DNA of 33,365 nucleotides. Source: Rubripirellula sp. Lineage in GTDB: Bacteria > Planctomycetota > Planctomycetia > Pirellulales > Pirellulaceae. The translations under genes were made by a program, and so were the position numbers. This document shows positions 28,439-30,304 of the stretch, one piece after another. Position 1 is the first letter of the stretch, and each line of letters opens with the position of its first letter. The stretch is from the NCBI GenBank assembly GCA_028823035.1, contig JAPKCI010000048.1:1-33365 (forward strand), read 5' to 3'. Below the pieces are notes generated by a model. It saw only the letters and a list, made by a program, of their open reading frames with translations. It searched no databases and was not told where the DNA came from.

Positions 28439-28512
28439 GGGCGATTAGCTCAGTTGGTTAGAGCGCTGTGTTCACACCGCAGAGGTCACAGATTCGAATT
28501 CTGTATCGCCCA
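28439..28512 (+). tRNA. tRNA-Val (anticodon CAC)
   Basis: A complete cloverleaf of 74 nt: acceptor arms GGGCGAT (28439-28445) and ATCGCCC (28505-28511) with discriminator A28512; D stem GCTC/GAGC; anticodon stem CTGTG/CGCAG with one G-T pair; loop TTCACAC giving anticodon CAC at 28473-28475; five-nucleotide variable loop AGGTC; T stem ACAGA/TCTGT with loop TTCGAAT. The CCA end is not encoded. The gene is intact although a recombinase gene starts about 110 bp downstream, as expected when an element integrates at a tRNA 3' end and restores it. The second attachment site would lie beyond the window. Confidence 0.96.
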
Positions 28513-28624
28513 CTTTCGTAAGTTATTGCCGAAACGCTACTTAGCGTTACCGCCTCTTCGGCGTGCGGCTCGATGTTCAATCGTTACAGGGTATTTCCAT
28601 ACCCCGTATCAACATGGAGTTGTT

Positions 28625-29173
28625 ATGCCACCCTCAAAAAGTCACGCACCAGTTTATCGCTACCACGTCTCGGGAAATGCCCAGGTGAGGCTATGCGGGA
28701 AAGACTTTTACCTCGGGTCACACGGATCACCTGAGAGCTATTCTCGGTATCACGCACTGCTTGCGGAATACAACGCCAACGGCAAAAAGCTGCCGGAAGG
28801 CGTGCCACAGCATCAAATGTCGCAGGAAATCAGGGTACGGGATGTGACTGCGGATTTCCGCGAACTGGAGCTTCCGCGATACGTTGACAACAGCGGCTCA
28901 TATAGCCGTCTGTCCGGCGTCCTGAACGCTCTAAACGAGCTTTACGGGGAGTTACCAATATCTGAGTTTGGACCCCTTAGGCTTCGGGAATTACGCAGCC
29001 GGCTAGCGAGATCGGGCAACTGCCGGCGTTATCTGAACGCCCAAGTACGAGATGTGATCCGAGTTGTGAGACATGGACTATCACGCGAGCTTGTGAAGCC
29101 GGAAACGATCACAGCACTGGAATCTTTGCCACCGCTCAGAAGCGGAGAAGCTCACGACAACCCAAAACGGTAA
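28625..29173 (+). CDS. Tyrosine recombinase/integrase, N-terminal part, ended by an in-frame TAA
   Basis: A 182-aa piece starting at ATG 28625 with GGAG 5 nt upstream. The frame is open farther upstream only because it runs through the tRNA. It opens MPPSKSHAPVYRYHVSGNAQ and includes the DFYLGSHGSPESYSRYHALL arm-binding region, typical of planctomycete integrases, then a core-binding helical domain to about residue 180. Its TAA (29171-29173) lies in the same frame as the catalytic part, and only one codon (AGC) separates it from the GTG that opens that part. Changing T29171 to A would give Lys and restore a 362-residue integrase. It may be a true nonsense mutation, a sequencing error or read-through; two separate polypeptides are also possible. 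Confidence 0.85.
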   Translation: MPPSKSHAPVYRYHVSGNAQVRLCGKDFYLGSHGSPESYSRYHALLAEYNANGKKLPEGVPQHQMSQEIRVRDVTADFRELELPRYVDNSGSYSRLSGVLNALNELYGELPISEFGPLRLRELRSRLARSGNCRRYLNAQVRDVIRVVRHGLSRELVKPETITALESLPPLRSGEAHDNPKR

Positions 29174-29176
29174 AGC

Positions 29177-29713
29177 GTGGCGCTGACACTCGTTCAGGCA
29201 ACTATTCCACACCTTGATCCCGTGGTTCAAACCATGGTCAGGCTTCAGCTTGCAACTGCTTGCCGACCGTCTGAGCTTTTCAGCATGACACCGTCCCAGA
29301 TCGACCGTAGTGGCGCTGAATGGATGTACCGACCCGAGAACCACAAAACGCAGCATCGCGGCAAAACAAAAGCTATTCCCATTGTCGGCCAGGCTGTGAA
29401 GTTGCTCGAGCCGATGCTGTACTGTGATCCCGATCAGCTTTGTTTTGTGAACAGAGCCGGCACACCCTGGAATAAAGACACCTACAGGCGTCACATCACA
29501 AGAGCAGCCGGCAATAACGGTCTGGAACACTGGACGCCCTATCAGTTGCGACACACCGTTGCACAGATCGTCCGTGATGAGCTGGGCGTTGAGGCGGCGG
29601 CGGCTTTGTTAGGTCACTCCAAACTGTCCACTACGGAAATTTACAGCCGAGCGAGCGAACAGCGGGCCATCGATGCGGCCAGAATTGCGACTACCAATGC
29701 GATAGGTGGTTAG
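29177..29713 (+). CDS. Tyrosine recombinase/integrase, catalytic part
   Basis: A 178-aa catalytic domain in the same frame as the preceding piece. It opens with a GTG (29177) that has no ribosome binding site, so that start is nominal. Active-site residues are visible, numbered from the GTG: R30 in ATACRPSELF, K57 in ENHKTQHRGKTKAIPI, R125-H126 in PYQLRHTVAQ, H147 in LLGHSKLSTTEIY and the nucleophile Y156. The first His of the usual HxxR box is Tyr (Y122), a common variation that need not abolish activity. The domain itself is intact, so the recombinase could work if the upstream TAA is suppressed or is a sequencing error, or if the two halves assemble. Confidence 0.88.
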   Translation: MALTLVQATIPHLDPVVQTMVRLQLATACRPSELFSMTPSQIDRSGAEWMYRPENHKTQHRGKTKAIPIVGQAVKLLEPMLYCDPDQLCFVNRAGTPWNKDTYRRHITRAAGNNGLEHWTPYQLRHTVAQIVRDELGVEAAAALLGHSKLSTTEIYSRASEQRAIDAARIATTNAIGG

Positions 29714-29752
29714 CGGTTTTCCGCAGATGTAATTGACGTTGCTTGTCTGTGT

Positions 29753-29780
29753 TTGACATGATCGGTAACGCTGTTACATT
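29753..29780 (+). promoter_or_regulatory. Sigma-70-type promoter with overlapping palindrome
   Basis: A -35 box TTGACA (29753-29758, perfect) and a -10 box TACATT (29775-29780) are separated by 16 nt, predicting transcription from about 29787. A palindrome GTAAC-GCT-GTTAC (29765-29777) fills the spacer and touches the -10 box, an ideal place for a repressor to act. The same GTAAC/GTTAC half-sites appear in the inverted repeat before the tRNA (28344-28372). Confidence 0.75.
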
Positions 29781-29786
29781 TACGAA

Positions 29787-29956
29787 CGTCTGGAACGCCT
29801 TTGAAATCAAACGGCGGGTGGTAATACCCCTATCGGCATGATGCCGTGAGACAGCCTGTGGAGCAGGTGAAACGTTTTCAGACAACGTGAAGCGTACAGT
29901 TAAGGCAGCTGGCTTCGAATCAACTTTTATGAGTTGGTTTGGAGCCAGTTGCCTTA
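29787..29956 (+). ncRNA. Candidate structured RNA: leader of the DUF1580 gene or independent small RNA
   Basis: Directly after the promoter come four short hairpins: 29816-29829 (GGGT/ACCC), 29834-29846 (CGGCA/TGCCG), 29854-29868 (GCCTG/CAGGT) and 29872-29888 (ACGTT/AACGT). Then comes a 25-bp stem (29901-29925 with 29932-29956, 6-nt loop). In that stem every non-Watson-Crick pair is a G-U in the plus-strand RNA, a sign that RNA rather than DNA structure is maintained. Hairpins two to four are each followed by a TGARRCR word (29847, 29868, 29888). Whether it ends at the long stem or runs into the DUF1580 gene is unknown. No known Rfam class is recognised. Confidence 0.6.
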
Positions 29957-29975
29957 TTTAATGCAGCAACTGTGC

Positions 29976-29994
29976 CTCCGAACCTTTTTCGGAG
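29976..29994 (+). promoter_or_regulatory. Hairpin hiding the DUF1580 ribosome binding site
   Basis: A perfect 7-bp stem pairs CTCCGAA (29976-29982) with TTCGGAG (29988-29994) around a 5-nt loop. The 3' arm contains GGAG (29991-29994), the only Shine-Dalgarno-like sequence in front of the ATG at 30003, 8 nt away. When folded, translation should be blocked; opening the hairpin, perhaps by rearrangement of the upstream leader, would allow it. Confidence 0.65.
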
Positions 29995-30002
29995 AGCCTC
30001 TT

Positions 30003-30248
30003 ATGCAAGCCAGTTTCAAGAACAGTCATTTGTTGACCGAGGACATAATCCCTGTCCGTGACGTTCCGAAGTATTGCCCAACTCGTCCGTCGAAAGTTAC
30101 TTTTTATAGGTGGGTTAATAGAGGGATCACGACTTCGAATGGTGACCGCATAAAACTGGAGAGCTTGAAAATAGGCTCACAGTTAGTCACGAGCGTCCAG
30201 GCCGTCAATCGCTTCATCGCAGCGTCTCAAACAGAGGAGGCGGCGTAG
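30003..30248 (+). CDS. DUF1580 helix-turn-helix-like protein of the element
   Basis: An 81-aa protein; ATG at 30003 with GGAG 8 nt upstream (inside a hairpin). The frame stays open to 29934, but that extension overlaps the long stem and has no ribosome binding site. The sequence follows the DUF1580 pattern: LLTEDIIPVRDVPKYCPTRP, then VTFYRWVNRGI, LESLKIGSQLVTSVQAVNRFI. This is a winged or MerR-like helix-turn-helix arrangement similar to excisionases and AlpA-like regulators. DUF1580 proteins commonly sit next to integrases and primases in planctomycete elements. A role in excision or regulation of the element is therefore inferred. Two hairpins follow the stop codon. Confidence 0.82.
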   Translation: MQASFKNSHLLTEDIIPVRDVPKYCPTRPSKVTFYRWVNRGITTSNGDRIKLESLKIGSQLVTSVQAVNRFIAASQTEEAA

Positions 30249-30269
30249 AGCGAAGGTCACATCGGAAGC

Positions 30270-30304
30270 CCGGCCCTGGTGCTAGCGGACAAGCATCGGG
30301 CCGG
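30270..30304 (+). terminator. Hairpin after the DUF1580 gene, possible terminator
   Basis: A 13-bp imperfect stem: CCGGCCC (30270-30276) pairs with GGGCCGG (30298-30304), and GGTGCT (30278-30283) with AGCATC (30292-30297), with a bulged T30277 and an 8-nt loop. It is followed by CAATTT, a weak T tract. It lies 22 bp past the DUF1580 stop and probably ends or stabilises that transcript. Confidence 0.5.

Follow-up and report, generated by a model that had tools for sequence, protein, structure and literature searches.

The leader of a DUF1580 gene in an integrative element of Rubripirellula sp. carries, in its 3' part, four short segments (A to D, Table 1) that we read, with a probability of about one half, as an off-by-default translation lock on that gene, built from competing hairpins. 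Computation places two hairpins at a fixed position before the gene, with the Shine-Dalgarno (SD) sequence closed in the second one and an alternative pairing available between segments B and C. By default, A would pair with B in a long hairpin and C with D in a short one, leaving the SD hidden and the gene off; with A missing or occupied, B would pair with C, D would be released and the gene would become translatable. We infer that such switching takes place in cells, where A could be engaged by a protein, by an antisense or small RNA, or by a ribosome. Were the DUF1580 protein the excisionase of the element, the lock would keep the element integrated and its release would control excision. 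Only four clear members, namely the window (the whole stretch of 33,365 nt analysed here) and three related elements, plus one loose member (L246), carry the evidence for the switch.

Table 1. Features of the window
Feature	Positions	Strand	Remark
tRNA-Val (cac), likely integration site of the element	28439-28513	+	tRNA detection
Tyrosine integrase region, two pieces in the same frame, in-frame TAA 29171-29173	28622-29713	+	start 28622 placed from the onset of the alignment
Promoter-like site TTGACA-16-TACATT, RNA predicted to begin about 215 nt ahead of the gene	29753-29780	+	consensus match only
Hairpin array with three TGARRCR words, no counterpart found in relatives	29780-29894	+	
Segment A, 5' arm of the long hairpin	29901-29926	+	
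Segment B, 3' arm of the long hairpin	29931-29956	+	alternatively, 29936-29944 can pair with 29976-29984 and 29946-29952 with 29966-29972 (7 further pairs)
T-rich tail of the long hairpin, weak terminator-like	29957-29963	+	
Segment C	29966-29984	+	5' arm of the short hairpin at 29976-29982; pairing with B possible at 29966-29972 and 29976-29984
Segment D, 3' arm of the short hairpin	29988-29994	+	contains the SD GGAG, 29991-29994
DUF1580 gene, excisionase-like winged-helix protein (putative role)	30003-30248	+	ATG 30003
Primase-like gene, near the contig end	30441-33257	+	

The locus and its genes

In the window, tRNA-Val is followed by a split tyrosine integrase, the leader, the DUF1580 gene and a primase-like gene, the DUF1580 gene lying directly behind the leader as a previous reading of the sequence alone (the sequence-only reading) had claimed. 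Either tRNA-Val or tRNA-Pro was found upstream of the integrase in six of the seven related loci scanned. The TAA separates the N-terminal from the catalytic part of the integrase, and many integrase relatives have an open frame of about 370-480 codons at the corresponding place; the window copy may be inactive, or the TAA may be an assembly error. A DUF1580 match lay downstream and on the same strand in 27 of the 40 loci fetched around integrase relatives, many of which had been chosen because a nearby DUF1580 match was already known. Since integrase, DUF1580 and primase relative succeed one another as in the window in L137 (G113:C39) and L159 (G148:C1) as well, this gene order recurs outside the core group of elements described below. 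The genome of the window itself holds a short piece with 83% identity to the integrase N-terminus (G000:C287:7796-7957) and a further integrase relative (41%; G000:C73:2561-3103), both of which, judging from their sequences, appear to be traces of other such elements.

We consider it plausible that the DUF1580 protein is an excisionase, on account of a structural match to RdfS, of weak HTH_17 matches and of the place of the gene beside an integrase. Among PDB entries, the structure modelled from seven related sequences (pLDDT 80, pTM 0.67) came closest to the RdfS excisionase (TM 0.52/0.61), with an E of 1.1 that is not significant, and HTH_17 was matched by four of the seven members, with a best E of 0.0014. 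A sequence search of the PDB with DUF1580 yielded no convincing relative.

Structure of the leader

Folding of 29753-30002 gave a minimum free energy of -104.6 (z -7.3, 0/200 shuffles as good), in agreement with the sequence-only reading, which had described a highly structured leader behind a near-consensus promoter. Most of this signal sits in the last 103 nt before the start codon (29900-30002, z -9.8) and not in the array: the part of the leader upstream of 29900 reached z -2.7, and the array alone z -3.06, with 2/200 shuffles as good. The promoter-like site matches the consensus at 10 of 12 positions, and 29600-30300 contains two such sites versus a mean of 0.4 in shuffles, in line with that claim.

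The word TGARRCR, to which attention had been drawn because of its regular repetition in the array, fared less well. Its occurrences at 29847, 29868 and 29888 are indeed the sole plus-strand cluster of three within 60 nt in the window, but the word is not over-represented there (45 occurrences versus 48.3 in shuffles) and the set does not recur in related leaders, and it was therefore dropped as a functional word. The three words (29847-29893) can also be read as GTG starts of tiny ORFs with poor SD support, two of which share a frame while the third overlaps their stop as GTGA; counterparts of these ORFs were not found in the leaders of relatives.

No counterpart of the array appeared in the DNA search of 294 genomes of the phylum, with a model of the array in 199 genomes, or in the related leaders. 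This bears on the proposal that the stretch from the 29753 promoter to the long hairpin is a small regulatory RNA in its own right, comparable to the immunity RNA of phage P4. A promoter-like site and a terminator-like hairpin do frame the stretch, but what recurs in relatives is the part over the gene start, no counterpart of the body of such an RNA having turned up in the same 294 and 199 genomes or in the related leaders, and we regard a P4-like RNA as very improbable. In Rfam 15, the tRNA alone exceeded the gathering threshold across the whole window; at E up to 10, five microRNA-precursor models were matched, all under threshold.

The stem of the long hairpin comprises 26 pairs, 21 of them Watson-Crick and the other five G-U in the plus-strand RNA (by another measure, arms of 25 nt that are 84% complementary without G-U), as the claim of a long stem whose irregular pairs are all G-U had it. 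The T-rich tail behind this hairpin reads TTATTTA and passes a loose terminator scan, and the hairpin may additionally end transcription. The final hairpin of the leader (29976-29982 with 29988-29994), which covers the SD of the DUF1580 gene, had been missed in the sequence-only reading, as had the complementarity of its 5' arm to the 3' arm of the long hairpin.

Search for related leaders

Direct searches with the leader did not lead to relatives. In the 294 phylum genomes, the DNA search hit, apart from the leader itself, a single 22-nt stretch in L033, in surroundings unlike the leader. A single-sequence model (R1), run on 60 sources and then on 199 genomes, found no relative: 24 of the 199 genomes matched at E up to 10 (best non-self E 0.008 per genome), and among the matches listed these were unlike the leader by eye. 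The regions around primase relatives (20) held one weak DUF1580 match, on the opposite strand, and no integrase relative, and the viral contigs and plasmids searched held no relative. Searching with the N-terminal part of the integrase, on the other hand, gave relatives in 132 of the 199 genomes of the family (E no higher than 0.001), and it was through integrase relatives that related elements were reached. An integrase profile search was run on all 241 family genomes, the set of leaders leaving aside the matches first found there.

When the 400 nt before 66 DUF1580 genes were scanned for ungapped hairpins, the window scored highest (24.5), and two further leaders, L105 (17.4) and L112 (15.8), had a hairpin at the same place; that of L142 (16.7) lay elsewhere (-342 to -298). 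Relative to the start of the DUF1580 domain, the long hairpin begins at -144 in the window and at -142 in L105, ending at -89 in both, and that of L112 spans -131 to -83. In L117 it is interrupted (ungapped score 6, the last rank) and was recognised by eye. The elements L105, L112 and L117 were also fetched as L134/L249, L138/L245 and L144/L248; together with the window they form the core group, and their integrases are 46-51% identical to that of the window. One more among the leaders examined, L246 (also L178), resembles the group loosely. Its four-segment reading was made by eye and was not recovered automatically (z -1.2 in the automated B:C test described below), and it is counted solely as a loose fifth. 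Homologous leaders before DUF1580 genes, for which the sequence-only reading had proposed a search, therefore exist as far as the long hairpin is concerned, but none was found for the array or the TGARRCR set.

The position of the long hairpin also bears on the idea that it belongs chiefly to the integrase transcript, as its 3' end or as a decay signal of the RNase III type, its nearness to DUF1580 being incidental. Lambda sib is the model for such a signal. In the four core elements the hairpin lies 113-301 nt downstream of the integrase stop, and that of the window is a long, near-perfect RNA duplex, as this explanation would have it. Against it, the position of the hairpin is fixed to the DUF1580 start and not to the integrase stop, and a promoter-like site stands between integrase and hairpin in three of the four elements, the promoter-like site of the fourth beginning at the integrase stop. 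We judge this explanation improbable.

Comparison of the core elements

Because the core elements were first noticed through the long hairpin, its presence in them is not an independent test. The last 100 nt or so before the start codon gave z -9.8, -7.5, -5.9 and -4.6 in the four core elements and -4.0 in the loose fifth. All four have a short hairpin with the SD at -11 or -12 nt from the start codon, in which C and D form seven pairs in the window, L249, L245 and (in the better register) L248, the outer pairs differing on both sides between L249 and L245. Taken alone, the short hairpin was non-significant in every core element (z -1.6, -1.2, -1.5 and -1.2). Segment B contains GGAG in all four, located 62, 55, 58 and 56 nt from the start codon. 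No stop interrupts the DUF1580 frame across the long hairpin in any of them, and conserved coding was considered as the cause of the similarity; since these spacings are not in codon steps, it was rejected.

B and C can form nine of nine pairs in each core element. Since arm C of L245 was out of place in the MAFFT alignment of the four, pairs were counted by script. Outside the shared CUCC/GGAG, 20/20 pairs form within elements versus 50/60 between elements. Two of the nine positions have two-sided changes against the commonest pair, and at a third position both sides differ between L249 and L248. As far as four sequences can tell, covariation of B:C is present but modest, since pairing between elements already reaches 83%; and B:C partly reflects the CUCC/GGAG common to both hairpins.

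An automated test, in which C was taken from the best C:D duplex and B and then A were sought, against shuffled upstream sequence, was applied to 123 DUF1580 leaders and is closer to an independent test than the presence of the long hairpin. The core leaders obtained B:C z values of -2.2, -2.5, -3.2 and -5.2, with B at -68 to -43, and whole-chain z values of -3.9, -2.1, -2.6 and -2.4. On each of the two measures, 10 of the 123 leaders fell below z -2.

The chief rival of the switch is a static double lock, as has been described for some transposase genes. The long hairpin would stop transcription that arrives from the direction of the integrase and tRNA, and the short one would block translation of whatever reads through; there would be no regulated second state, and B:C would arise from the shared CUCC/GGAG. 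In two of the four core elements (L249 and L245) the long hairpin is followed by at least five T in a row, and that of the window passes the loose terminator scan, as this explanation would have it; yet L248 has no T-run, the window has TTATTTA alone, and B:C reaches well beyond CUCC/GGAG in all four. Taking into account also the results given in the next two sections, we hold a static lock to be possible but doubtful.

Predicted switching of the fold

With A present, the predicted probability of C:D was 0.94-1.00 in all four core elements. When the RNA was trimmed to begin at B and stop at the start codon, that of B:C became 0.94, 1.00, 0.80 and 1.00 in the window, L249, L245 and L248, and the predicted access to the SD 0.21, 0.63, 0.54 and 0.22, respectively. 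Adding gene sequence did not weaken B:C in L249 and L245; in the window its probability was then 0.13 (12 nt) and 0.38 (25 nt), and in L248 1.00 (12 nt) and 0.07 (25 nt). When A was masked in place and 25 nt of the gene were kept, SD access was 0.48 in L245, 0.03 in the window, 0.08 in L249 and 0.03 in L248; in the window, a 15-nt mask at -95 raised it up to 0.57. The prediction of two exclusive folds, one of them hiding the SD, is thus strongest in L245 and L249 and weak in the window.

As a control, we looked among 92 DUF1580 leaders for those closed (SD access below 0.05) at 128 nt and with an access of 0.2 or more when cut to 62-66 nt. Without gene sequence, opening was seen in L138 and L134 at each of the three cuts and in L013 at one. 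When 12 nt of the gene were included, L138 and L161 opened at every cut and L134 and L013 at a single one. The window showed an access of 0.00-0.21, and L248 was not fully closed with its full leader (0.25). At most two of the 88 non-core leaders opened on cutting; most DUF1580 locks therefore show no such switch, which is what a static lock would lead one to expect. In these models, opening on cutting is thus almost confined to the core group, where only two of the four members show it clearly.

As to what might engage A, no leader ORF with a good SD overlaps this segment in the five leaders. In 330 nt of each, just two ORFs in the range of 3-59 codons had an SD of at least 4, one of 3 and one of 4 codons, at -292 and -289 of L249, under a rule that excluded starts with a very short SD spacing, such as the window GTG at 29867. 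Leader-peptide control was accordingly rejected as a general mechanism, no suitable leader ORF having been found in the five. A search for an upstream pairing partner of A in five leaders found none (z -1.3 to +1.4).

The proposal of the sequence-only reading that the leader is an RNA switch on an excision regulator thus gains partial support: its 3' part recurs before DUF1580 genes, with some compensatory changes and two mutually exclusive predicted folds, the role of the regulator being its weaker half.

SD-covering hairpins before DUF1580 genes

The sample comprised 127 DUF1580 genes from loci fetched among the matches listed, the family counting at least that number. Three of the 127 were left out for short upstream sequence, one of the remaining 124 from the B:C test, and 32 of the 124, which have no SD of 4 or more, from the comparisons that call for one. 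An SD-covering hairpin with z below -2 precedes 39 of the 124 genes. Among genes with an SD of 4 or more, such a hairpin was found in 30/92 DUF1580 genes versus 19/338 control genes of the same loci (Fisher p 9e-11), and one with z below -3 in 20/92 versus 4/338; the start codons behind these figures were chosen by different rules, those of DUF1580 by a score (codon, SD, distance to the domain) and those of the controls by taking the earliest start within the first half of the frame that has an SD of at least 4. With proteins clustered at 50% identity, such hairpins remained in 20 of the 70 clusters, and in 14 of the 53 that have an SD. The four core elements are not among the significant cases, although their arrangement is alike.

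Some DUF1580 genes (L029, L137, L151 and L170) stand directly behind a hairpin plus T-run that touches the start codon, and in 20 of all 124 DUF1580 genes a T4 run is found no more than 14 nt from the start, versus 7 of 338 controls, the latter all having an SD. Both observations are in favour of the static lock. We tentatively propose, with rather less confidence than an even chance, that cis-acting RNA locks on the SD silence the whole class of DUF1580 genes in planctomycete mobile elements, and that the window represents a new, four-segment switch form in which engagement of the A arm would release translation and commit the element to excision.

The word GTTGCA occurs in the last 70 nt of 17/123 DUF1580 leaders (for example L137, L150, L170 and L239) versus 1/338 controls (62 nt), and GCGTTGCA precedes DUF1580 genes in 7/123 leaders and no control; either is possibly a protein-binding or promoter word. 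It could be argued from the enrichment of GTTGCA, and from the location of the hairpins between the integrase and a putative DNA-binding protein, that the hairpins are DNA sites (an operator, or arm sites for integrase or excisionase) and not RNA. However, the imperfect pairs of the long stem in the window (5/26) are all G-U in the plus-strand RNA and would be mismatches in DNA, and the short hairpin sits on the SD; the chance that they act as DNA sites seems to us very small.

Other structures were noted near integrase ends. In L137, L145, L147, L157, L150, L151 and L170, the first 150 nt or so after the integrase stop contain a hairpin with a loop that matches, as its complement, the letters just ahead of the next ATG, and the letters of loop and partner vary: TCCCGTAG/CTACGGGA in L137, TCCCTTAG/CTAAGGGA in L145, TCCCATAG/CTATGGGA in L147 and TCCAATGC/GCATTGGA in L170. 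A covarying pseudoknot over the SD of the next gene is possible at those ends, to judge by these letters. A strict detector, used with no null, flagged 6 of 36 integrase ends (L147, L150, L151, L170 and two repeat-rich ends) and none in the window; it missed L137, L145 and L157, where the loop pairings had been read by eye.

Comparison with known systems

The decision of planctomycete mobile elements to stay or to leave seems little studied. If our reading is true, a protein family of unknown function would gain a probable role, and about a third of its genes an RNA control point; an RNA lock on a DUF1580 gene would be new to the specialist, and its segments are short and explicit. In the open-licence literature searched, DUF1580 is not named, and we found no account of an excisionase SD sequestered by a hairpin or of a riboswitch in Rubripirellula. 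The available portion of PMC4265352 contains nothing on hairpin protection of transposase genes.

According to the portion of PMC5418344 available, ermC attenuation relies on a leader RNA that can fold in two ways, the ribosome-binding site being hidden in one of them, and the tetracycline genes of Bacteroides have a similar mechanism. The device proposed here would share this feature with translational attenuators (ermC and similar ones, and tetQ of CTnDOT), its two exclusive folds being predicted. It differs from them in that no leader peptide was found in the five leaders and in that it would act on the DUF1580 gene of a mobile element and not on a resistance gene.

Lambda sib and the P4 immunity RNA are structured RNAs near integration or immunity genes. 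The leader likewise is a structured RNA near the integration genes of an integrative element, but its recurring part lies on the start of the downstream gene, and no conserved separate RNA body was found. In IS10 and IS50, the transposase genes are protected by a hairpin against read-through transcripts. As in these, a recombination gene of a mobile element would be silenced by a hairpin over its SD; in contrast to them, the window has two consecutive hairpins, a competing third pairing and a promoter-like site of its own well upstream.
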